From: Synergistaceae bacterium
GTDB taxonomy: Bacteria > Synergistota > Synergistia > Synergistales > Synergistaceae
Direction: 5' to 3'
Assembly: GCA_031268885.1 (NCBI GenBank)
Contig: JAIRWR010000092.1
Span: 1 to 42,548, forward strand
DNA length: 42,548 nucleotides
A program made the position numbers and the translations under genes. Position 1 is the stretch's first letter; each line of letters starts with the position of its first letter. A model generated the notes under the pieces. The model saw nothing but the letters and a program-made list of their open reading frames with translations. It was not told where the DNA came from and ran no database searches. Of the stretch, positions 18,892 through 30,140 are shown one piece after another.

Positions 18892-19220
18892 GAGCCGTCT
18901 CGCGGGAAGCTGCTTTGGCCTCCGTCTATGATGACCGTCTCGCTCGCGCCTACGGCGCTTGCTTTGAGGCGCGCCGCGCTGTTGCCCTCCGAGCGGCGGA
19001 ATTCTCTGCGGTCTGGAAATGCTTTATCCAGTCCGAGCAGTATGTCCCTTACAACATCCGGGTCGGCATTTTCGTTGATTGTAATGCCTGCCGTGGTGTG
19101 AGGGCAGTAAATCACGGCGAGGCCGTCAGCGACACCGCTTTTAGTCACGGCCTCGCGAACGGATGGCGTAATGTCTATAAAATCCACAGTGGATGTTCTG
19201 AGCGAATATTCAAAGAGCAT
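18888..19220 (-). pseudogene. yjbQ: decayed YjbQ/UPF0047-family protein
   Basis: A 110-aa frame from ATG 19220, with GGAGG seven bases upstream. The family blocks YCPHTTAGITINENADPDV and EGNSAARLKASAVG are clear. Full family members are about 130-140 residues and end with a G.W..I.F.EFDGPR block, which is missing here. Two conserved histidines near the second block (H.EGNS and SAAH) are arginines (FRRSEGNS, SAAR). The product probably lacks the family metal site, or has been repurposed, although it is still coupled to the AlkZ-like gene by an ATGA overlap. The 90 bp between 19221 and the right arm contain no gene. Confidence 0.65.
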
Positions 19221-19312
19221 GGGCGAACCTCCGTCTGTTTGTCAAATCTACGAGCGTTTGAGAGCCATCTTTTTCAGACATGGCGCAGTGAAAAAGTATG
19301 TATCCAAAGCCC

Positions 19313-19492
19313 ATTAGCGCGGAGTTGATCAAATTCCACATGTTGTCTATAGCCATCGGCCTGTAGGTATCGTATAATTATTATAAGCCTTCTACCCGAT
19401 GGCAACCTCCTTTAGTAGTGGAGTACTAAAGGATTATATACATCGATAGAAGGCTTTTCAACTTCTTAATGTGAGAACCTTGAACTCTCCAG
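19313..19492 (-). repeat. right inverted arm of the composite element
   Basis: Reverse-complement copy of 17621-17800. Read on the minus strand it has the same order of terminal repeat, promoter and self-complementary section. The ATG of the left-arm short frame is ATA here, so that frame is not maintained. Confidence 0.85.
19433..19461 (-). promoter_or_regulatory. sigma70-type promoter in right arm, pointing inward
   Basis: On the minus strand TTGAAA (19456-19461), a 17-bp spacer and TATAAT (19433-19438). It points at the YjbQ-like/AlkZ-like pair and is the obvious promoter for them. Confidence 0.75.
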
Positions 19493-20170
19493 TCAGTTAA
19501 TGAGATTCTGAATTTGATCCAGGGGCAATCCCGCGTTTTTGGCTATGACATCCGGCGAGAATCCGTCAGCCAGCAAATTACGGGCAAGTTCGAGCTTGCC
19601 CTTTTCTATGCCCTTTTCTATGCCTTCTTCGATGCCGCGCTGTTTTACTTCCTCCGCCGCGTCCAATTCGTAAAACGGAATATACATTATCTTTCCCTCC
19701 TCGTTCAATTGCAGCCTGTATTCTCTGTATTTTTCCGCGAGCTCCTTGTCCTCGACGCGGAGTATACGCTCTATAAAAAGCAGAAGGTCTCGCCTTTCAA
19801 ACGCATCCCAGCCTCGCTCCCCGAGAATGCCGGAGATCAAGCGCAGGTAGTTGAATTTCTGGAGATCGTCTTTACTCCTTACAGCGCACTTCGCGGAGTA
19901 AAGAGCGAGGTCTATAGGGTTTTCGCTTTCGAGAAGCTCCTTGTCGTCCAGCTCCGCCAACACGAGGTTATTATAGCGATAAACGCTTTCCGTGCCAAAG
20001 CGGGAGTACGAGTAAAACCTCTGATTTTTTTTAAGCCCCGAGGTAATTATCGCGAGGGCGGCCGGTTCCTTCCGGTAATGCGCGTAGATAAGGCATTTAT
20101 AATGATCCATGCGCTCGCTGTCTTTGGAATTGAGCGCGTTTTCGCTGCTTTCGCGTTCATCCTCGTTCAA
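19493..20170 (-). pseudogene. 5'-truncated Rpn-type PD-(D/E)XK nuclease/putative transposase
   Basis: The 225-aa frame matches the C-terminal two thirds of the Rpn/PD-(D/E)XK family: SERMDHYKCLIYAHYRKEPAALAIITS, the F..ERRDLLLFIERIL helix, and the Glu/Gly-rich GIEEGIEKGIEKGKLELAR tail ending LPLDQIQNLIN. The N-terminal nuclease core with the Asp...Glu-x-Gln/Lys catalytic residues, about 100 residues in full members, is missing. The stop codon touches the end of the composite mobile element. Upstream lies another gene fragment in the same orientation. Activity is unlikely. Confidence 0.65.
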
Positions 20171-20212
20171 TTCGCGTCACCATCCCTTCCGGATATTATA
20201 TCGCGTTTTACC

Positions 20213-20316
20213 TCAGAACAGCGGAACTACCCTGTGAGTGAACGCCTCGCGCGGCATGGGGCCAAAATAACGGCTGTCGAAACCCCTGTATGGGATCTCG
20301 ATACCAGCCAGTAATT
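20213..20316 (-). pseudogene. C-terminal remnant of a TraF-type (S26) signal peptidase
   Basis: One minus-strand frame reads LLAGIEIPYRGFDSRYFGPM then PREAFTHRVVPLF and a stop at 20213, close to the FDSRYFGP...PLW ending of S26/TraF peptidases. Upstream the homology seems to continue in a different frame as PVVLSEDNYW, so a small deletion has broken the gene, perhaps loss of a TGGC repeat unit. The rest of the gene is not recognisable. Confidence 0.45.
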
Positions 20317-20386
20317 ATCCTCGGAGAGCACGACCGGCGTAGGGTATGACAAATAGATTCGCAACTCCAAGTATTTTTCCTGCGTC

Positions 20387-20414
20387 TTGACAAACTGAAA
20401 TGAGCGGATATAAT
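20387..20414 (+). promoter_or_regulatory. consensus sigma70 promoter of the nitrogenase-like operon leader
   Basis: TTGACA (20387-20392), a 16-bp spacer and TATAAT (20409-20414). Transcription would start near 20421, 40 bp before the leader ORF and about 280 bp before the first structural gene. Confidence 0.8.
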
Positions 20415-20460
20415 GGCGCTAGTTTACCTATATAATTAATATGAATTAGGGGGATTGGCC

Positions 20461-20568
20461 ATGGCATACAGCGAGCTGGAAGTTCTGAACCGCGATGGAA
20501 AGATGAAGACGCGCGACGGCTTGATGTGCTGTCATCTCTGTATGCGCACGCGTTCAAGCGTTCCGTGA
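20461..20568 (+). CDS. putative Cys/Met leader peptide of the nitrogenase-like operon
   Basis: A 35-codon ORF starting at ATG 20461, preceded by AGGGGGA at 20448-20454. It encodes MAYSELEVLN at the start and, at residues 22-28, the run Met-Cys-Cys-His-Leu-Cys-Met, so three Cys and two Met codons lie within seven positions. It sits between a consensus promoter and an intrinsic terminator, the classical layout of a transcription attenuator in which stalling at scarce Cys- or Met-tRNA lets RNA polymerase read on. I recognise no homologue, and the role is inferred from layout and codon content. Confidence 0.6.
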   Translation: MAYSELEVLNRDGKMKTRDGLMCCHLCMRTRSSVP

Positions 20569-20579
20569 CGATGGCCTGA

Positions 20580-20641
20580 TTCCGCTTCATCCTGATATTA
20601 TTTCGCGGAAGCCAGCCGGCAGTCAGAGGCGGGCTTTTTTT
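20580..20641 (+). terminator. intrinsic terminator/attenuator with upstream competing hairpin
   Basis: The terminator stem pairs AGCCAGCC (20610-20617) with GGCGGGCT (20628-20635), with one mismatch, a 10-nt loop and a run of seven T ending at 20641. A second stem, TTCCGC (20580-20585) with GCGGAA (20605-20610), abuts it and shares A20610. It can be extended by GGC (20573-20575) pairing with GCC (20611-20613), which would invade the terminator stem. This arrangement is compatible with mutually exclusive antiterminator and terminator structures. Confidence 0.7.
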
Positions 20642-20701
20642 ATTGACTATGAAACGCTAAAACGACCCCGCACCAGGGGTTGGAGCCGAGGAGGTCATCT
20701 G

Positions 20702-22372
20702 ATGGCGAGAAAGAAGATCAATCTGAAGATATCCAGCGTCGATACCCGTGAAATGCGGCTTGGTACTATCACGTCGTGGGACGGAAGCGCGTCGGAACTG
20801 GTGGACGCGTCGAGGTATGAAGCCAGAGGGCGCGGACGCGTCACGGGAGGAGGAGAGGCTGACCGCGAAGGATGTCACGGCGGTGGGAAGGTATGCCGCC
20901 TGCGGGAGCTGAAAATGCCGTTCAATCAGCAGACTATGTGCAGTCACGCGATAGTGGCCTGTCAATTGGGAAACCTGACTGACTGCATACTGGTGGAACA
21001 TGCTCCGATAGGATGCTCGGCATCTAACGCCAGATTCAATCAGGGGTTCAAGATTGGTCTTGCCAGGCGGGGAAAGCCCATTCAGAGCATTCAGATATTC
21101 AGCACAAATCTGAAGGAGAACGACATGGTATTCGGGGCGAGCGACCGTCTGCGCCAGACGGTAAGAGACGCCAACGAGAGATTCGGCCCTAAGGCCATCT
21201 TCATCTCCATGTCGTGTTCCACGGCGATAATAGGGGAGGATCTCGACAGCCTCGCGCAAGAATTGGAGACTGAGCTTAAGATCCCCGTCGTGCCAGTCTA
21301 TTGCGAGGGATTCAGAAGCAAGCACTGGAGTACCGGCTTCGACGCCTCCCAGCACGGAATAGTCAGGCAGATCGTAAATAAGAATCCGAAAAAACAGAAC
21401 GACCTGATCAACATCGTCGCCCTCTGGGGTACTGATTACTTCACGCCGATGCTGGCTCCGCTCGGCCTTCGGGTCAATTACATGGTGGATATGGCGAGCT
21501 TCAGCGAACTCAGACAGGCATCGGAGGCGGCTGCCACCGCCACGTTCTGCCATACGCTCGGTTCTTATATGGCCACTGCGCTTGAGGAGTACTACGGAGT
21601 TCCTCAGATCGACGCCCCTCAGCCCTTCGGAATAGCCGGAACCGACGACTGGCTGCGGGCGGTGGCGAAAGCTGTCGGGAAAGAGGACATTATTGACGAC
21701 TACATAGAGAGCGAGCACAGGAGGATCTCTCCAAGGCTGGAAGAGCTGCGAAAGATACTGAAGGGCGTCAAGGGTTTTGTCTCGACCGGTTCGTCCTACG
21801 CCCACGCCATGATCTCCGTCATCAGGGATCTCGGTATCGAGGTGGAGGGGTCGATCGTCTTTCATCACGATCCGGTGTACGACGCCGGGCATGAGAATCA
21901 GGACACGCTCGGACATCTGGTGAGAAATTCCGGTGATCTCGCTCACTTCACGGTCAGCCAGACGCAGCAGTTTCAGTTTCACGGACTGCTCAAGAGGGTC
22001 AATCCGGACTTCATCATAATAAGGCACAACGGCCTGGCGCCGCTCGCCGCCAAGCTGGGAATCCCATCCTTTCCAATGGGCGACGAGCACTTCCCCCTCG
22101 GATATGACGGGATAATCCGCACAGGCGAGGCCCTGATAGGCATCCTGGCGAAGAAGAAGTTCAACGCCGTGCTGAAGCGTCACGTCGAAATCCCCTATAC
22201 CGACTGGTGGCTCTCGCAGGAGGACCAGTTCATACTAGCGAAGCATCCAGAGATACTCGATGAGCCCGATGAGACCAAGACGCCGCTCGGCGCGGACAGA
22301 TCCGCCAATCCGATCCAGATGGATCCGGACGATAATCTGAGCGCGCCGGAGGAGAAGCTGCGCTATGCCTGA
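20702..22372 (+). CDS. NifD-like nitrogenase component 1 alpha subunit
   Basis: A 556-aa protein starting at ATG 20702 behind GAGGAGGT. It keeps the three alpha-side P-cluster cysteines: Cys80 (TMCSHA), Cys105 (EHAPIGC, 25 residues later as in NifD) and Cys172 (SMSCSTAIIGED). Cys283 in FCHTLGSYMATALEEYYGVP aligns with the FeMo-co ligand Cys275. The partner histidine (H442 in GPYHGFDG) is not conserved in place: DEHFPLGYDG has Leu directly before GYDG and His three residues earlier. NifE is less likely, since a K-type gene, NifH and NifB follow and no second DK/EN pair exists. A methylthio-alkane reductase-like (MarD) or other reductase alpha subunit is the best fit. Confidence 0.82.
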   Translation: MARKKINLKISSVDTREMRLGTITSWDGSASELVDASRYEARGRGRVTGGGEADREGCHGGGKVCRLRELKMPFNQQTMCSHAIVACQLGNLTDCILVEHAPIGCSASNARFNQGFKIGLARRGKPIQSIQIFSTNLKENDMVFGASDRLRQTVRDANERFGPKAIFISMSCSTAIIGEDLDSLAQELETELKIPVVPVYCEGFRSKHWSTGFDASQHGIVRQIVNKNPKKQNDLINIVALWGTDYFTPMLAPLGLRVNYMVDMASFSELRQASEAAATATFCHTLGSYMATALEEYYGVPQIDAPQPFGIAGTDDWLRAVAKAVGKEDIIDDYIESEHRRISPRLEELRKILKGVKGFVSTGSSYAHAMISVIRDLGIEVEGSIVFHHDPVYDAGHENQDTLGHLVRNSGDLAHFTVSQTQQFQFHGLLKRVNPDFIIIRHNGLAPLAAKLGIPSFPMGDEHFPLGYDGIIRTGEALIGILAKKKFNAVLKRHVEIPYTDWWLSQEDQFILAKHPEILDEPDETKTPLGADRSANPIQMDPDDNLSAPEEKLRYA

Positions 22373-23729
22373 CATCCTGACCGATGCCAACAGATTCCGG
22401 CGGACGAACACCATAGTTCACCCGCGCTACGGCTGCGCCATCGGGGCGGTGTACAGCGTGGTGGCGATACCTGGCGGCGTCCCGATAGCCAACTGCGGCC
22501 CGGGATGCGCGGACAAACAGTTTTTTATGATGTGCGGAGAAAACGGATACCAGGGGACAAACGGCGCTGGCGCCGGAGCCATGCCAAGCGCTAATGTCGG
22601 CGAAAACGAGATTGTGTTCGGCGGGACGAAAAAGCTCGACGCGCTCATCAAATCGGCGCTCAGGATCATGAAGGGCGATATCTTCGTAGTGGTTACAGGC
22701 TGTTCCGGCGAGCTCGTAGGGGACGACGTGGGCTCCGTGGTCCGCGGATATCAGAGGGCCGGCAAGCCCGTCGTGTTCGCCGACGCTGCTGGCTTCAAGG
22801 GCAACAACATAACGGGCCACGAGATAGTTATGAAGGAGATAATCGATCAGTTCGTCGGTGATTACAAGGGGAGAAAGCGAAAGGGACTTCTGAATCTCTT
22901 CTTTGAGGTGCCGTACTTCAATACAAACTGGCGAGGCGACTTCATCGAGTTAAAGCGCGTTCTGGAGGGCGCGGGGCTGGAGGTAAACGCGCTGTTCGGA
23001 CCGGAGAGCCGAGGAGCCGCCGAGTGGAAGGATATCCCAAAGGCTCAGTTCAACCTCGTCGTCTCGCCCTGGGTCGGCATCGACACCGCGGAGCACCTGA
23101 AGGCCAAATACAATCAGCCGTACTTGCATGTGCCGATAGTGCCGGTGGGAGAGGAGGCTACGACGGAGTTCATCCGGCAGGTTGTGGAATTCGCCGGCAT
23201 CAATCCGAAAAGATCGGAGGAATTTATAAAGAAAGAGGCAAAGCTCTACTACTACTTCCTCGAACACTTTACGGAATTCTTCTCTGAATTCTGGTTTGGC
23301 CTTCCTTCAAGATTCGCCATAGCCTCGGATGCCTCCACCAACCTGGCGTTGACGAAGTTTCTGGCCGACCAGATGGGCGTTATTCCGGTGAAGCAGATAA
23401 TCACCGATAACCCGCCGGAGAGATTCAGGGATGGCATCAGACGCCTCTATGAAAACATAACCGAAGGCGTCTCCGCGGAGGTCGATTTTATCGAGGACGG
23501 TTACATAATTGAGCATGAGATCAAAAACGCCGACTTCGCTGGAACGGTCCCGCTGATACTGGGCTCCACGTGGGAGATGGACGTTGCTGCCGAACTTGGG
23601 GGGCTTTTAGTCCGAGTAGGCACTCCGAATACCGAGGAGGTGGTGATGAACCGTAGCTTTATCGGTTACAGAGGCGCGCCGACCTTCATGGAGAGGGTTT
23701 ACAGCGCGGCGGTCAGCGGCGGAAGTTAG
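22365..23729 (+). CDS. NifK-like nitrogenase component 1 beta subunit
   Basis: A 454-aa protein whose start overlaps the NifD-like gene by 8 bp, indicating coupled translation. The beta-side P-cluster cysteines are present: Cys23 (PRYGCAIGAV), Cys48 (NCGPGCAD, 25 residues on as in NifK) and Cys113 (VVTGCSGELVGDDV). It is shorter than Mo-nitrogenase NifK (about 520 residues) and lacks the long N-terminal extension. It would form the alpha2-beta2 catalytic component with its neighbour and receive electrons from the NifH protein downstream. Because all P-cluster ligands are intact on both subunits, an eight-iron P-type cluster is expected, unlike protochlorophyllide-reductase types. Confidence 0.82.
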   Translation: MPDILTDANRFRRTNTIVHPRYGCAIGAVYSVVAIPGGVPIANCGPGCADKQFFMMCGENGYQGTNGAGAGAMPSANVGENEIVFGGTKKLDALIKSALRIMKGDIFVVVTGCSGELVGDDVGSVVRGYQRAGKPVVFADAAGFKGNNITGHEIVMKEIIDQFVGDYKGRKRKGLLNLFFEVPYFNTNWRGDFIELKRVLEGAGLEVNALFGPESRGAAEWKDIPKAQFNLVVSPWVGIDTAEHLKAKYNQPYLHVPIVPVGEEATTEFIRQVVEFAGINPKRSEEFIKKEAKLYYYFLEHFTEFFSEFWFGLPSRFAIASDASTNLALTKFLADQMGVIPVKQIITDNPPERFRDGIRRLYENITEGVSAEVDFIEDGYIIEHEIKNADFAGTVPLILGSTWEMDVAAELGGLLVRVGTPNTEEVVMNRSFIGYRGAPTFMERVYSAAVSGGS

Positions 23730-23766
23730 AGAAGCGCTGGCTTATTGACGGATGTCCGGAGGATAA

Positions 23767-24663
<897 letters not shown>

Positions 24664-24693
24664 AAACACTATTACGTAAGAGAGGAGAGAGCC

Positions 24694-25500
24694 ATGCCGA
24701 ACAAAATCGAGATGAACAATCTCAGTCAGGTTTACTACGTCAGGAGCGGCGAGAGTTCGAAGAAGTCTGCCTTTTACGCGCTTAAGGATTTCACGCTCTC
24801 GGTGAGGGACGGGGAGTTTGTCGTGGTCGTCGGTCCCAGCGGCTGCGGGAAATCCACTCTCTTGGGCATCCTGTCCGGGCTCTTCAAGGCCAATTCGGGT
24901 AGCATCGCCATAGACGGCGAGACCGTTGAGGGACCAGCGCTCGACAGAGGGTTTGTGATGCAGAGCTATGCGTTGTTTCCGTGGAGGACGATCAGGAAGA
25001 ACATCGAATTTGGGCTTGAGATCAAGAAGATACCCAGAAAGGAGCGCGGCGCGATCAGCGGGGCATATATCGATCTGGTCGGCTTGAACGGATTTGAAAA
25101 CCGCTATCCGCACGAGCTATCGGGCGGCATGAAACAGCGAGTCGCTATCGCTAGGGCTCTCGCCTACGACCCAAAGGTGCTTCTGATGGACGAGCCCTTT
25201 GCCGCAGTCGATGCTCAGACGAGGGAAAAACTCCAGGACGAGCTGATTCGTATCTGGAAGAAGACCAACAAGACGATCATCTTCGTAACCCACAACATAG
25301 AGGAGGCGGTCGCCCTCGCGGACCGTGTGGTCGTCATGACAGAGAACCCTGGAACCATCAAGGAGATAGTGCCCATAGACCTGCCCCGTCCGAGGGTGAG
25401 CGTCGGGACAGGTGTCTCGGAGAGATACTCGATATTCGTAAACAAGATATGGGGGCTCCTGCATAACGAGGAGGAGAGCTTTGAGAGTGCGAAGCTGTAA
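24694..25500 (+). CDS. ABC transporter ATP-binding protein, SsuB/TauB type
   Basis: A 268-aa ATPase with Walker A VVGPSGCGKSTLL, Q-loop segment MQSYALFPWRT, signature LSGGMKQRVAIARAL, Walker B VLLMDEPFAAVD and H-loop VTHNIEEA. Sequence and length are typical of the nitrate/sulfonate/taurine family. It starts 30 bp after nifH, behind GAGGAGAG, and the two permeases and the binding protein follow in order. Its presence inside the nitrogenase-like operon implies import of the enzyme's substrate or of a metal or sulfur source; the ligand cannot be read from the sequence. Confidence 0.92.
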   Translation: MPNKIEMNNLSQVYYVRSGESSKKSAFYALKDFTLSVRDGEFVVVVGPSGCGKSTLLGILSGLFKANSGSIAIDGETVEGPALDRGFVMQSYALFPWRTIRKNIEFGLEIKKIPRKERGAISGAYIDLVGLNGFENRYPHELSGGMKQRVAIARALAYDPKVLLMDEPFAAVDAQTREKLQDELIRIWKKTNKTIIFVTHNIEEAVALADRVVVMTENPGTIKEIVPIDLPRPRVSVGTGVSERYSIFVNKIWGLLHNEEESFESAKL

Positions 25501-25529
25501 GGGCGGACAGAGATGGGGGTGACGCGGCG

Positions 25530-26303
25530 ATGAAAAAGTTTTCGAGCATGGCCGTAATAGCGGCCTTCTTTCTGATATGGGAGGCCGCCGCGAGGCTGAA
25601 TCTGATAGACACACAATTTATACCGGCGTTTTCCGTGGTAATGAGGGAGGTCTTCTCACTGGCGCGAAGCGGCGCGCTCTTCGTGCACATCTCGGCCAGC
25701 GTCATACGGCTGTTTCTGGGGATAATTCTTGCGGTGGCAGCCGCTCTGCCGCTTGGATTCATGCTGGCCGGGTGGACGCCGAGGACGGCGGATTTTCTGA
25801 ACCCGCTCTTTACCAATCTTTCCATGGCAAACCCGTTCACCCTGATTCCTGTATTTATCCTCGTGCTGGGCATGGGGGAGGTGAGCAAGGTTGGAATAAT
25901 ATTTTGGGTCGTCCTCTGGCCGGCGCTCTTTTCGACGATAGCGGGCGTAAGCCAGATAGATCCCGAGATGATAAAGGCGGCCAGGGCAATGGGAGCGAGC
26001 GGGACCAAGATATTTCTCTCCGTCATTCTGCCCGGCAGCGTCAAGCGGATATTCACCGGCGTCAAGTCCTCCGTCACGTTCGGTTTCACGGTCCTTGTGG
26101 GCGCGGAAATGATTGGGGCCAAAGCCGGGCTCGGCTTCATAATCTTCACCTCGAACCAGAACTATAACATTCCGAGGCTGTACGTCGGCATCTTGACCAT
26201 CGCGGTCGTCGGAGTAGCGGTAAGCCTGTTCATCGAAAGATTGCAGAAGCTGATAGTCGTCTGGGAGGAGAGCGCCGGTCCGGCGGCGCGAGAGACGCGA
26301 TGA
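25530..26303 (+). CDS. ABC transporter permease, SsuC/TauC type (first)
   Basis: A 257-aa inner-membrane protein with about six helices and the EAA-type cytoplasmic loop (IKAARAMGASGTKIFLSVIL) that docks to the ATPase. The N-terminal SMAVIAAFFLIWEAAARL helix and the FTLIPVFILVLGMGEVSK segment are typical of the SsuC/TauC family. Its stop overlaps the start of the second permease by 4 bp (ATGA). Two different permeases suggest a heterodimeric channel. Confidence 0.9.
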   Translation: MKKFSSMAVIAAFFLIWEAAARLNLIDTQFIPAFSVVMREVFSLARSGALFVHISASVIRLFLGIILAVAAALPLGFMLAGWTPRTADFLNPLFTNLSMANPFTLIPVFILVLGMGEVSKVGIIFWVVLWPALFSTIAGVSQIDPEMIKAARAMGASGTKIFLSVILPGSVKRIFTGVKSSVTFGFTVLVGAEMIGAKAGLGFIIFTSNQNYNIPRLYVGILTIAVVGVAVSLFIERLQKLIVVWEESAGPAARETR

Positions 26304-27097
26304 ATACCACTATTGCGCGGGCTTTTCTCTTGAAATTGAAGAAGACGGCGTTCAAGAGCCTCTCCACGCTGCTGTTTTTTGCCCTGTGGCACGCGGCGTC
26401 GGTTACTGGAATATTGGATGAGGGAATAATTCCGGGCCCGATCGGCGTAATTAAGAGGCTGTTTGTGGATATCTTCGCCGGGGACCTGTTTACCAAGCAT
26501 ATCATTCTCTCCTTCAAGCGGGCTGGCGAGGGTTTTCTGGCCTCGCTCATCGGAGGGGCGTCGCTCGGGTTTTTCCTGAAGGTCCTTCCCGAAAGGGCGC
26601 GCGCCGCTCTCATGCCCGTGCTCCGGATGTTCGAAAAGTTAAATCCTCTGGCGCTCTTTCCGGTCTTCATGCTCTTTCTTGGAATAGGAGAGGGCAGCAA
26701 GGTGATGATAATCTTCTGGGTCGCCGTGTGGCAGATCGCCTTCCACACACTTGCCGGCCTGCTCGATGTCGATCAGGACCTGGTGAAGGCGGCCAGGGTG
26801 ATGGGCGCCGGCAGAGTCGGGGTATTCTGGAAGGTATGCATCCCGGCCGCCCTTCCGGATATCTTCAACGGCGTGAAATTCGGAGCGCAGATCGCTTTTA
26901 TCTTCGTGGTGTCCGTCGAGATGCAGAGTTCCTCGGCCGGTCTCGGTTGGTTCATCAACAACGCGAAGCATATCTATAACCTGTTCGATCTGTATGCCGG
27001 AGTGATAGTCGTCGCCCTCTTGGGCGTCTTCATCGGTAAAATCCTGGCGCTTGTCGAAGATCGTCTGTTCTCCTGGAAGGAGAGGGCTATACGATGA
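26300..27097 (+). CDS. ABC transporter permease, SsuC/TauC type (second)
   Basis: A 265-aa membrane protein, paralogous to the preceding permease, with LNPLALFPVFMLFLGIGEGSK and the EAA loop VKAARVMGAGRVGVFWKVCI. The ATGA overlap with the first permease shows co-translation. Many transporters in this family use a homodimer of one permease, so the paired genes are slightly unusual. A 254-bp gap with structured RNA elements follows before the binding protein. Confidence 0.9.
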   Translation: MNTTIARAFLLKLKKTAFKSLSTLLFFALWHAASVTGILDEGIIPGPIGVIKRLFVDIFAGDLFTKHIILSFKRAGEGFLASLIGGASLGFFLKVLPERARAALMPVLRMFEKLNPLALFPVFMLFLGIGEGSKVMIIFWVAVWQIAFHTLAGLLDVDQDLVKAARVMGAGRVGVFWKVCIPAALPDIFNGVKFGAQIAFIFVVSVEMQSSSAGLGWFINNAKHIYNLFDLYAGVIVVALLGVFIGKILALVEDRLFSWKERAIR

Positions 27098-27136
27098 AGC
27101 GCCGGATAAATCCAGCAACCACGAAAGGAGAAGGCC

Positions 27137-27232
27137 ATGGCGTACTCGACTGAACGTTCGCGCGAGGCCTCATCCCGAGGCAAGGCGCGGCTTGTGCCGG
27201 CTGACCGCGGCCGGCGATGTAGGTTCTTCTAG
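27137..27232 (+). CDS. possible 31-aa small ORF before the binding-protein gene
   Basis: ATG 27137 has AAAGGAGAAGG just upstream, a strong ribosome-binding site. The 31 codons are Arg/Ser-rich, begin MAYS and end RRCRFF. The operon leader peptide at 20461 also begins MAYS behind a GGCC context, which may be a coincidence or mark two related leaders. No homologue is recognised. Confidence 0.35.
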   Translation: MAYSTERSREASSRGKARLVPADRGRRCRFF

Positions 27233-27235
27233 TTC

Positions 27236-27299
27236 TTCTATAAGTATAGAAACTCGCGGCCGGTCTTTGCGGCGGTCGATTTTTACAATCAGACCGCCG
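27236..27299 (+). other. hairpins in the permease/binding-protein gap
   Basis: TTCTATA and TATAGAA (27236-27251) form a perfect 7-bp stem with a 2-nt loop. CGGCGGTC (27270-27277) and GACCGCCG (27292-27299) form an 8-bp stem with a 14-nt loop. Neither is followed by a T-run, so they look like RNA-processing or stability elements that could set binding-protein expression apart from the upstream genes, not a terminator. Confidence 0.5.
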
Positions 27300-27351
27300 G
27301 TGAATATTCAGTTTTCTTATGAATTATGCTGACGATAAGGAGAGATAAGAG

Positions 27352-28365
27352 ATGACCGAGATAAAAAGCAGATCACACAGAATAATAACGATGGTTTTGG
27401 TATGTGCCGCATTCCTGGGAATAAGCGCGGGCTCCGCCTATCCGGCTGGAGATCTGTTCCCCATAAGGACCTCGACCAGGTTCGACTGCACGCTCGCCCC
27501 ATACCTTGTGGCAGACAAACTCGGATTCTTCAAGGAGGAGGGACTCGAACTGGTATTTACTGGAGAACTCCCATCCACGGAATATACGACCGCGATACTA
27601 GCTGGCGAGACCGATTTCGCGGATCACCATCCGAACGCGCTCGCGCTTCAGATACACGGCGGCGCCAAGGTGAAGGCTGTGGGGCGGTCGATAATAGAGC
27701 CCGACGAGAGCGCGGACCCGAGACTTCGCCACATGAGATATTACGTGACGCGCGAGGCCTATGACGCGGGGGTGAAGACCCTGGCCGACCTCGGTAAGTA
27801 CAAGGAGGGCGAGAAGCTAAAGTCCGCCGGCGTCGAGAACACATGCGAAACCTTCATACTGAACAAGGCTCTCGACAGAGTCGGGGTGAGCAGGGACAAG
27901 CTCGAATGGATAAGCGTGGATGCGGATGTGGCCAAGATTCAGGCCCAGAAGCTGAATCAGTTCGACATCATCGGCGTACACCCTCCGTTCTACGATGCCG
28001 CGGTCGAAGCGGGCTTAGTTCAAATCGGGGATTCGTCGGACGCGAAACTCGGCGAGGCTACCGGGGTGTATCTTTACTACTTCTCCAATGATTTTATCGA
28101 GAAGCACCCGAATGAGGTCGCCGGTTTCGTCAGGGCTATGACCAAAGCCCAGAGGTGGGCGAACGCGAATCTGGAGCAGACAGCGAAATGGACCGGCGAG
28201 TTCATCGGCCAGGACGTGAAGGGCAACCACTACTACTCCGAGACCACCGAGATCGACGAGGAGACTGTGCTTCCATGGATAGAGGATCTGGAGAAGACCG
28301 GAGCGCTTCCCGCCGGCGCGATAAAGGTTTCGGACATCGTAACCCATCAGTTTGAGGCGAAGTAA
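27352..28365 (+). CDS. ABC transporter periplasmic substrate-binding protein, SsuA/TauA-NMT1 type
   Basis: A 337-aa protein with a Sec signal peptide (IITMVLVCAAFLGISAGSAYPA, cleavage likely before GD). There is no good lipobox, since Val precedes Cys. The mature part has family features: RFDCTLAPYLVADKLGFFKEEGL, AILAGETDFADHHPNALALQ, and IGVHPPFYDAAVEAGLVQIG. It binds a small ligand for the permease pair. Relatives bind sulfonates, taurine, nitrate or pyrimidine precursors; a methylated or reduced organosulfur compound would suit the operon but is inference. GGAGAG precedes ATG 27352. Confidence 0.9.
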   Translation: MTEIKSRSHRIITMVLVCAAFLGISAGSAYPAGDLFPIRTSTRFDCTLAPYLVADKLGFFKEEGLELVFTGELPSTEYTTAILAGETDFADHHPNALALQIHGGAKVKAVGRSIIEPDESADPRLRHMRYYVTREAYDAGVKTLADLGKYKEGEKLKSAGVENTCETFILNKALDRVGVSRDKLEWISVDADVAKIQAQKLNQFDIIGVHPPFYDAAVEAGLVQIGDSSDAKLGEATGVYLYYFSNDFIEKHPNEVAGFVRAMTKAQRWANANLEQTAKWTGEFIGQDVKGNHYYSETTEIDEETVLPWIEDLEKTGALPAGAIKVSDIVTHQFEAK

Positions 28366-28387
28366 AGGAAGTGATGATTATAACGCC

Positions 28388-29266
28388 ATGCTTTACGCGA
28401 TACATAATGAGTCCATGAAGGTAAGCCAGTTTCACCCATGTTTCGCGGACTCGGCCATGGGCAGGTTTGGCAGGCTTCATCTTCCTGTCTCGGAGTCGTG
28501 CAATATACGCTGCCGCTTCTGCAATAGAGCTTTTAACTCGATTGAAAATCGCCCCGGGGTCACGGGCGGGATTCTCGACGCGAGTGAGGCCGTGGCGACA
28601 GTCAGGCGAGCGCTGGAACTCTGCCGCGAGATAACGGTGATAGGGATAGCCGGGCCTGGAGACGCGCTCGCGTCTGACTCCGCGATCAAGGCGCTTCGAG
28701 CCGTGCACGGGGAATTCCCGCGCTTGATAAAGTGTGTGAGCACGAATGGGCTGATGCTGCCCGAACGGGCCGACGAACTCGCTGAAGCGGGGGTGAGCGC
28801 CCTGACGGTGACGATCAACGCGGTGGCCCCCGATATAGCCGAGCGCGTCGTCTCGTATATCGACTTTGACGGACGGAGGATGACCGGAAGGGAGATGGGC
28901 GAAACGCTGATATCAAGACAGCTCGACGGTCTCAGCAAGGCCGCTCGAACCGGTGTCGCGATCAAGGTGAACGCGGTCCTGATTCCCGGGATAAACGACC
29001 GTCACGTGGAGGACATAGCTATCGCGGCAAGTCGTTGCGGCGCGGAGAGGTTCAACATAATACCGCTTATACCCCAGCACGAGTTCTCACATATCGAGCC
29101 TCCGGACTGCGAGACGCTGCAAAGGGTAAGGAGCGCCGCCGAAAGACATATCGAGGTATTCCGCCACTGTCTTCACTGCAGGGCCGACGCCTGCGGAGTA
29201 CCCGGTTTGAGCGATTTTTCGGGAAAACTTTACGGCAATGAAATGGAGACATTCTCCCATGGATAG
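28388..29266 (+). CDS. NifB-like radical SAM cofactor-assembly protein
   Basis: A 292-aa protein with FHPCF, GRLHLPVSESCNIRCRFCNRAF (CxxxCxxC cluster site), RPGVTGGIL, VIGIAGPGDALAS, CVSTNGLMLPE, KVNAVLIPGINDRH and the NifB-specific C-terminal CLHCRADACG. NifB inserts carbide and fuses two 4Fe clusters to make the 8Fe core of nitrogenase cofactors. The C-terminal NifX-like domain found in many NifB proteins is a separate gene here. The frame is open from TTG 28352 inside the previous gene; ATG 28388 is preferred, with ATG 28415 possible. Absence of nifEN suggests that the 8Fe core is loaded directly into the D/K-like protein. Confidence 0.88.
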   Translation: MLYAIHNESMKVSQFHPCFADSAMGRFGRLHLPVSESCNIRCRFCNRAFNSIENRPGVTGGILDASEAVATVRRALELCREITVIGIAGPGDALASDSAIKALRAVHGEFPRLIKCVSTNGLMLPERADELAEAGVSALTVTINAVAPDIAERVVSYIDFDGRRMTGREMGETLISRQLDGLSKAARTGVAIKVNAVLIPGINDRHVEDIAIAASRCGAERFNIIPLIPQHEFSHIEPPDCETLQRVRSAAERHIEVFRHCLHCRADACGVPGLSDFSGKLYGNEMETFSHG

Positions 29267-29615
29267 ATACCTTGCCGCCATTGCGAGCAGCGATATGAAA
29301 AACGTGGACACGCACTTCGGAAGATGCCGCGTATTTACAATAGCGGAGATAGATCCGAATGATGGGACTTACAGGATAATAGGACAGAGGGATGTGAGTC
29401 CTCCTTGTCCTTCCTGCGGAACAAAGGGAGAACCCGACGACGCGATTAATTCGGTCGTGGAAGCCCTGTCGGACTGCCGTCTGGTCATCGTCTCGAAGAT
29501 CGGCAGATGGCCGGACTCCCTGCTATACGAACGCGGGATCGAGAGCGTTCAATACCTCGGGCCGATCGACAGAGTTCTTGAACATATAGTTGGGAGAGAC
29601 AGATCAAAAACCTGA
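29259..29615 (+). CDS. NifX/NifB C-terminal-like iron-cofactor-binding protein
   Basis: A 118-aa protein of the dinitrogenase iron-molybdenum cofactor family, with AAIASSDMKNVDTHFGRCRVF, VSPPCPSCG and LVIVSKIGRWPDSLLYERGIE. It starts at ATG 29259, overlapping the NifB-like stop by 8 bp; the open frame extends to 29238 without a better start. Family members carry cofactor precursors between NifB and the catalytic protein. It is the last gene of the plus-strand operon. Confidence 0.85.
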   Translation: MDRYLAAIASSDMKNVDTHFGRCRVFTIAEIDPNDGTYRIIGQRDVSPPCPSCGTKGEPDDAINSVVEALSDCRLVIVSKIGRWPDSLLYERGIESVQYLGPIDRVLEHIVGRDRSKT

Positions 29616-29629
29616 AGAAGGCCATAACG

Positions 29630-29665
29630 CAAAGAGGGGGGATAAGAATTATCCACCCCTCTTTG
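29630..29665. terminator. long hairpin between convergent operons
   Basis: CAAAGAGGGG (29630-29639) pairs exactly with CCCCTCTTTG (29656-29665), with further GATAA/TTATC pairing inside. It lies between the NifX-like gene and the convergent flgJ-like gene and probably ends transcription from both sides. The T-runs are short. Confidence 0.75.
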
Positions 29666-29720
29666 GCAATTTTGCGCTGTTCGAGTATTCAAGCGGCCGA
29701 CGGCTTTTTTATGCCTGACT

Positions 29721-30140
29721 TCAACTCTCCGGCATCACTTCGCGCGCTTTCGGCGGCCTCAGACTCCTGGCGTTCTTCTTCTCAGCGGAGATCGCCGCCG
29801 CCGATATCCTTTCGGCTTTTATCTCGGCCGGGACCTCCAGTTGACTGTGAAGGTTGTCATATAGGACCTTCCAAACCCCTATGCCCTGACTCTCGCTCAG
29901 GTGCTCGGAGACCATCTCCACCACCGTGTCCTCCAGCGGGCCGTAGGCGCGCTTGCGATCCTCGCCGCCAATTGATCTTGCAGACTTCATCATGTCCTTC
30001 CAGATCTTCGAGAAGATCGTTCCCTCGAACTGCTTGCAGCGCGTCTCAAGGGCTCTCTCCTGTCTCCGGTACTCCTCAACCGACATGCTTCCGTCGGCGT
30101 TGCGGAGGTTGGGCCTGTTTATGTCGTTGAAGTCAGCCAT
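29721..30140 (-). CDS. flgJ: FlgJ-type rod-binding protein, no muramidase domain
   Basis: A 139-aa protein with the rod-binding domain pattern ALETRCKQFEGTIFSKIWKDMM and YGPLEDTVVEMVSEHLSESQGIGVWKVLY. Proteobacterial FlgJ has an extra C-terminal peptidoglycan hydrolase domain, which is absent. It helps the flagellar rod cross the wall. It is the last gene of the mreB-flgFGAHIJ block, 12 bp after flgI. The C terminus is charged and probably disordered. Confidence 0.85.
   Translation of the reverse strand: MADFNDINRPNLRNADGSMSVEEYRRQERALETRCKQFEGTIFSKIWKDMMKSARSIGGEDRKRAYGPLEDTVVEMVSEHLSESQGIGVWKVLYDNLHSQLEVPAEIKAERISAAAISAEKKNARSLRPPKAREVMPES

Follow-up and report, generated by a model that had tools for sequence, protein, structure and literature searches.

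What does the nitrogenase-like operon of a Synergistaceae bacterium do, and which signal governs its transcription? We analysed a 42,548-nucleotide stretch of this genome (the window), in which a short ORF and an intrinsic terminator separate the promoter from the first structural gene. An earlier note on this DNA had proposed that the operon is switched on when charged Cys- or Met-tRNA is scarce, and that its enzyme serves sulfur or methionine salvage and not nitrogen fixation. The elements on which this proposal was built, namely the promoter, a 35-codon ORF with a Shine-Dalgarno (SD) sequence and the MCCHLCM run, a hairpin, a terminator with seven T residues and a strong ribosome-binding site of the first gene, were all found in place (Table 1).

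The operon and its leader region

Both catalytic subunits had their best PDB matches in the Mar proteins of R. rubrum (9FMG/9D9U). The D subunit matched MarD with E = 3.6e-195 (next family 4e-34) and the K subunit matched MarK with E = 1.7e-161 (next family 7e-19). That is, the closest relatives of D and K are MarD and MarK, not NifDK or BchNB. All MarD ligands that were checked by alignment are conserved (P-cluster Cys66, Cys91 and Cys158; cluster ligands Cys270 and His429), and the MarK cysteines were taken from the PDB-match alignment, where the chain numbering is offset. 9FMG is a methylthio-alkane reductase. If no sulfate is available, this enzyme turns methylated sulfur compounds into methanethiol, from which methionine can be made directly, and R. 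rubrum is reported to use the Mar pathway under this condition (PMC12552129). We conclude that the window operon encodes a methylthio-alkane reductase; its role in organic-sulfur salvage, established for the family, is transferred by homology, and its C-S cleavage activity is inferred. The sulfur-salvage role suggested earlier thus draws support from the Mar identity, from Cys leaders before related operons, metY and metK, and from the linkage with cysK described below.

Table 1. Features of the window (position 1 is its first nucleotide) and loci carrying the Firmicute element
Feature	Position or locus	Strand	Details
Sigma-70 promoter TTGACA-16-TATAAT	20387..20414	+	from sequence; TTGACA 20387-20392, 16-nt spacer, TATAAT 20409-20414
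Leader ORF Shine-Dalgarno AGGGGG	20448..20453	+	from sequence; 7 nt 5' of ATG 20461
Possible pre-emptor	20452..20462	+	pairs with 20571-20583 in full-length fold; weak, total fold not better than shuffles
Leader ORF MAYSELEVLNRDGKMKTRDGLMCCHLCMRTRSSVP, 35 codons	20461..20568	+	from sequence
Control codons Met-Cys-Cys-His-Leu-Cys-Met (MCCHLCM), residues 22-28	20524..20544	+	Cys at 20527, 20530, 20539
Candidate antiterminator 5' arm	20566..20586	+	begins at leader stop codon; duplex -22.2 kcal/mol, p = 0.013 versus shuffles
Candidate antiterminator 3' arm	20604..20626	+	overlaps terminator 5' arm
Intrinsic terminator hairpin and T7	20608..20641	+	hairpin 20608-20637, T7 20635-20641
marD-like catalytic subunit, first gene	20702..22372	+	RBS AGGAGG 20689-20694; Mar match
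marK-like subunit	22365..23729	+	Mar match
nifH/marH-like reductase (Fe protein)	23803..24663	+	
ABC importer, ATPase and two permeases, sulfonate/taurine type	24694..27097	+	
SsuA/NMT1-type substrate-binding protein	27352..28365	+	
nifB/marB-like radical SAM protein	28352..29266	+	nifB model, E 8e-76
NifX/dinitrogenase-cofactor-type protein	29238..29615	+	
Firmicute element, 5' of D genes or operon starts	L227, L229, L170, L171, L173, L176, L177, L034, L037, L230, L231, L233, L237		
Firmicute element, further loci	L250-L258		

The same genome carries a second nitrogenase-like operon (G000:C86 = L144:3918-8680, minus strand) of the order H-cysK-K-D, with the cysteine synthase gene inside. The D subunit of this second operon is closest in the PDB to MarD (9e-62). 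A promoter lies directly upstream of it, and no Cys leader was found there.

The promoter of the window operon matches the sigma-70 consensus at 12 of 12 positions and is alone in doing so in the 11 kb that were scanned (19000-30000). A Pfam search of the leader ORF gave no match. Three Cys codons fall within five codons of this ORF, and such a Cys cluster is the feature that the window leader has in common with the other leaders described below. No riboswitch or T-box match was obtained when the window was scanned with Rfam at the gathering threshold, and the Rfam scans of the window and the ortholog loci returned no relevant match.

As background for the frequency of such clusters we used 1.37 Mb of the same genome, made up of the window and stretches from 100 other contigs. 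Among 9046 short SD-preceded ORFs, 54 (0.6%) had three Cys in six codons, and a second script found three Cys in seven codons in 95 of 9252, five of these 95 being followed by a terminator. The one other strong-terminator case inspected in this background, L151, was rejected as an artefact, since its Cys leader is read from a ThiT-like gene in the wrong frame, 3' of a thiamine-type leader. Taken alone, the window site is therefore suggestive, not conclusive; what makes the case for a Cys leader convincing is its recurrence before related operons.

Cysteine leaders at other loci

We compared leaders at orthologous Mar, Mar-like, metY and metK loci from metagenome bins and draft genomes, leaving out the same-genus genome G001 because its contig ends inside marD. 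Two orthologous Mar operons of Synergistaceae possess leaders with a Cys cluster, ...GRCCPCAIMRSC... (RCCPC) in L033, followed by a hairpin that is strong but has a poor U-tract, and ...AKCCTCAC... in L045. Cys leaders were also seen at related Mar-like operons, both in further Synergistales and in Acetobacterium. In Mar-like operons whose D subunit is about 39% identical, the leaders read ...NMCMCSRMQRMC... (L160), ...NMCMCGQMR... (L166), NMCMCVCARRMC (L163), NMCVC... (L164) and ...DMCMCSRM... (L179). Weaker versions with two Cys were seen in L021 (TLCECE) and L054 (YMCIC).

Cys leaders also precede metY. The leader ...MCCCMPVGMFNCC... of Acetobacterium (L172) and the leader ...SCCACMPMC... 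of genome G068 (L058) both stand before a metY gene that is followed by a Mar-like D gene, CMCC or MCC leaders precede metY in six loci of Eubacteriaceae, and L218 and L219 have a different metY leader, ...MCSLKCC(C). An ICCHCC leader was found before metK in L041, where the gene was named from reading its translation, without a family search. In L217, L218 and L219, from other members of the Acetobacterium family, the leaders 5' of metY have the form TCQSDWIRHVLR...RMC(CR or SLKCC).

Most of these Cys leaders are followed by a terminator. The terminators before metY in Acetobacterium are weak (-8 kcal/mol), none was seen in the 75 nt read at L219, and a Synergistales operon start, L057 (G068:C58), has no leader. 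The comparison of leaders upstream of orthologous operons, by which the earlier note had suggested checking its idea, thus came out in favour of Cys clusters, mostly with a terminator, for L033, L045 and the Mar-like operons, but not for most Firmicute Mar operons, which lack a Cys leader (the Clostridium Mar upstream regions gave none). Firmicute Mar-like operons without a Cys leader were seen as well.

Structures overlapping the terminator

The terminator hairpin of the window has a folding energy of -12.5 to -13.2 kcal/mol (z = -2.28; 5 of 200 shuffles were as good). It was missed by a simple terminator scan, presumably owing to the stem mismatch and the 10-nt loop. The core of the candidate antiterminator is formed by GCGGAA (20605-20610) and TTCCGC (20580-20585), with GCC pairing to GGC at 20573-20575. 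This TTCCGC/GCGGAA pairing is the 'adjacent hairpin' that had been described before, and we consider it an antiterminator candidate because it overlaps the terminator.

The duplex test asked how well the first 25 nt, counted from the stop codon, pair with the terminator's 5' half; the best duplex was set against those obtained after shuffling these 25 nt 2000 times (mononucleotide shuffles). The window gave p = 0.013, and 10 non-redundant leaders combined gave a Fisher p of 8e-5; in 5 of the 14 leaders p exceeded 0.3. The 5' arm starts -3 to +5 nt from the stop codon in 14 of 14 leaders, so that it would be covered by a ribosome completing the leader. The arm is GATGA in several leaders from Synergistales, where it pairs with TCATC, the loop of the terminator; the sequences involved differ in other leaders. 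Dinucleotide shuffles, used in an earlier test, had given a mixed result, the prefix-fold energy being not significant (Fisher p = 0.32) and the upstream pairing of terminator nucleotides reaching p = 0.005. Because of this result, and because the duplex test was designed after the prefix-fold test and its region picked after the GATGA/TCATC pairing had been noticed, we regard the antiterminator/terminator switch as supported but not proven. Folded at full length, the leader was no more stable than shuffles (z = 0.50).

Orthologous operons without the Cys/Met run had been named beforehand as an outcome that would refute attenuation by the leader. This condition is partly fulfilled, as most Firmicute orthologs lack the Cys leader, and many of these operons carry a different element that overlaps the terminator instead. 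The element, found in Firmicute nitrogenase-like operons, has the form TTGAC-YYRR stem/AAAA-like loop-GAG(A/G), and its 3' half is the 5' arm of the terminator. Its stem varies with pairing kept (CUAG/CUAG, CUGG/CCAG, CCGG/CCGG and CCAG/CUGG), and there was no Rfam match in the loci scanned. Searching 117 genomes for the exact pattern yielded 9 copies in 4 of them, versus 0 for the reversed pattern; copies also occur before CODH-, molybdoenzyme- and copper-ATPase-like genes. We regard the element as a candidate for an undescribed attenuator. Since several Firmicute operons have a terminator-overlapping hairpin but no Cys leader, attenuation seems to be common, with a sensor that differs.

Proposed mechanism, alternatives and known systems

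Judging from sequence, we think it quite probable that this region attenuates transcription of the Mar operon by a ribosome-mediated mechanism that responds to cysteine. The parts, their geometry, the recurrence of Cys leaders before related operons and the Mar identity are direct observations; there are no expression data, and stalling, switching and the signal are inferred. With ample charged Cys-tRNA, the ribosome would reach the leader stop codon and cover the start of the antiterminator, leaving the terminator to form. A shortage of Cys-tRNA would make the ribosome stall some 25-40 nt further upstream, at the Cys codons, and the antiterminator could form, sequestering the 5' arm of the terminator and allowing transcription of the operon for organosulfur uptake and cleavage. 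Attenuation by a Cys-codon leader, as proposed in the earlier note, is backed by Cys leaders that occur independently upstream of orthologous operons, of Mar-like operons and of metY and metK.

The ORF might instead encode a functional small Cys-rich protein, either metal- or cluster-binding or a RiPP precursor, the terminator merely lowering downstream expression. A Cys-rich peptide beside an iron-sulfur enzyme and a radical SAM gene would suit such a function, and the closely related leaders L160, L166 and L179 share more than Cys. However, the peptides of the window, L033 and L045 are unrelated outside Cys: with Cys masked, all pairs scored at shuffle level (window/L033 z 0.0, window/L045 z -1.2, L033/L045 z 0.2), although MarD of the window is 83% identical to its ortholog in the genome of L033 (G014). 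Peptides that have only Cys in common despite a conserved MarD look, from such comparisons, like leader peptides and unlike a conserved small protein. With the same design before metY and metK, no Pfam match, a radical SAM gene that is NifB-like and ABC genes of the importer type, we consider a functional small protein very unlikely. We give equally little credence to a constitutive terminator or a protein-controlled attenuator in which the Cys codons are incidental. The Firmicute orthologs, having a terminator-overlapping hairpin without a Cys ORF, indicate that these operons can be under terminator control without any leader peptide, yet clusters of three Cys in 6-7 codons, present in about 1% of short SD ORFs, recur before Mar, Mar-like, metY and metK genes.

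If the leader is read as an attenuator, two amino acids come into question as its signal, cysteine and methionine. Relative to background short ORFs, Cys was the most enriched residue of the leaders (5.5-fold), followed by Met (3.6-fold). Because the leader set was chosen for Cys, this enrichment compares Met with Cys and is no test of Cys itself. Sensing of methionine, alone or together with cysteine, would agree with the Met enrichment, with the Met codons that flank the Cys codons, with the NMCMC motif in L160, L166 and L163 and with the supply of methanethiol by Mar, which leads to methionine. But no Met stands next to the Cys cluster in L033 (RCCPC) and L041 (ICCHCC), and it is cysK, not metY alone, that accompanies these operons; in Acetobacterium, cysK adjoins marD. 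At other loci, metY, metA, metK and cysK are linked to such leaders or operons. Of the Cys- or Met-responsive control envisaged earlier, the Cys part stands, since Cys is shared by all leader types, and the Met part does not hold in common. The Met-free clusters and the cysK genes in or beside nitrogenase-like operons thus support cysteine, not methionine, as the common signal, the response to cysteine limitation being inferred; we consider a methionine signal very unlikely.

The window shares a leader ORF with control codons, an antiterminator from the stop codon and an intrinsic terminator before the first structural gene with trp/his-type attenuators of Proteobacteria and Actinobacteria, but differs in its Cys control codons, its Synergistota host and its target, a nitrogenase-family operon for sulfur salvage. 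Cys-codon leader ORFs have been predicted for cys operons of Mycobacterium and Propionibacterium and for cbs of Bifidobacterium; they lack an obvious terminator, and Rho-dependent or translational control was proposed (PMC1262725). The window resembles them in that Cys codons are clustered in a short leader ORF ahead of genes for sulfur amino-acid supply, but it does possess an intrinsic terminator. Polycysteine ORFs were tested in mycobacteria (Canestrari 2020, as cited in PMC13236596); these are leaderless, whereas the window ORF has a 5' UTR, an SD sequence and a terminator and so does not belong to that class. The His leader peptides of hisS/hisZ in bacilli likewise represent attenuators beyond Proteobacteria and Actinobacteria, with a different amino acid and different genes; the paper describing them stated in 2010 that, before its own hisS case, no amino-acid leader peptide had been demonstrated outside these two phyla (PMC2965389).

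A literature search, limited to open-licence papers and hence no proof of absence, found no report of a Cys-codon leader on a nitrogenase-family operon. We lean, somewhat less firmly than for the window itself, towards an undescribed class of terminator-type cysteine attenuators across Synergistota and Eubacteriales that controls metY, metK and organosulfur reductases of the nitrogenase family, the latter being Mar and a Mar-like group that is uncharacterised and often accompanied by metY or cysK. The known range of Cys-codon leaders that have an intrinsic terminator would thereby come to include Synergistota and Eubacteriales, and the class would provide a regulatory handle on the uncharacterised Mar-like enzyme family, which, if this is true, also supplies sulfur for cysteine. 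Ethylene, methane and methanethiol are released in anoxic habitats by enzymes of the nitrogenase family, and cysteine scarcity would be the physiological signal predicted for these enzymes.

The MarBHDK system of R. rubrum (PMC12552129) has the MarD and MarK subunits, the metal ligands, a NifB-like maturase and the role in methionine salvage in common with the window. The window operon differs from it in gene order, in its ABC importer and in the Cys leader. The regulator of Mar in R. rubrum, SalR, is a protein. Near the promoter of the window, at 20422-20441, lies the sequence TTTACCTATAT. In L033, an inverted repeat TTTACCT...AGGTAAA spans the -10 region (about 622-654); it may serve as a repressor operator, in which case the initiation of transcription could be under control as well.
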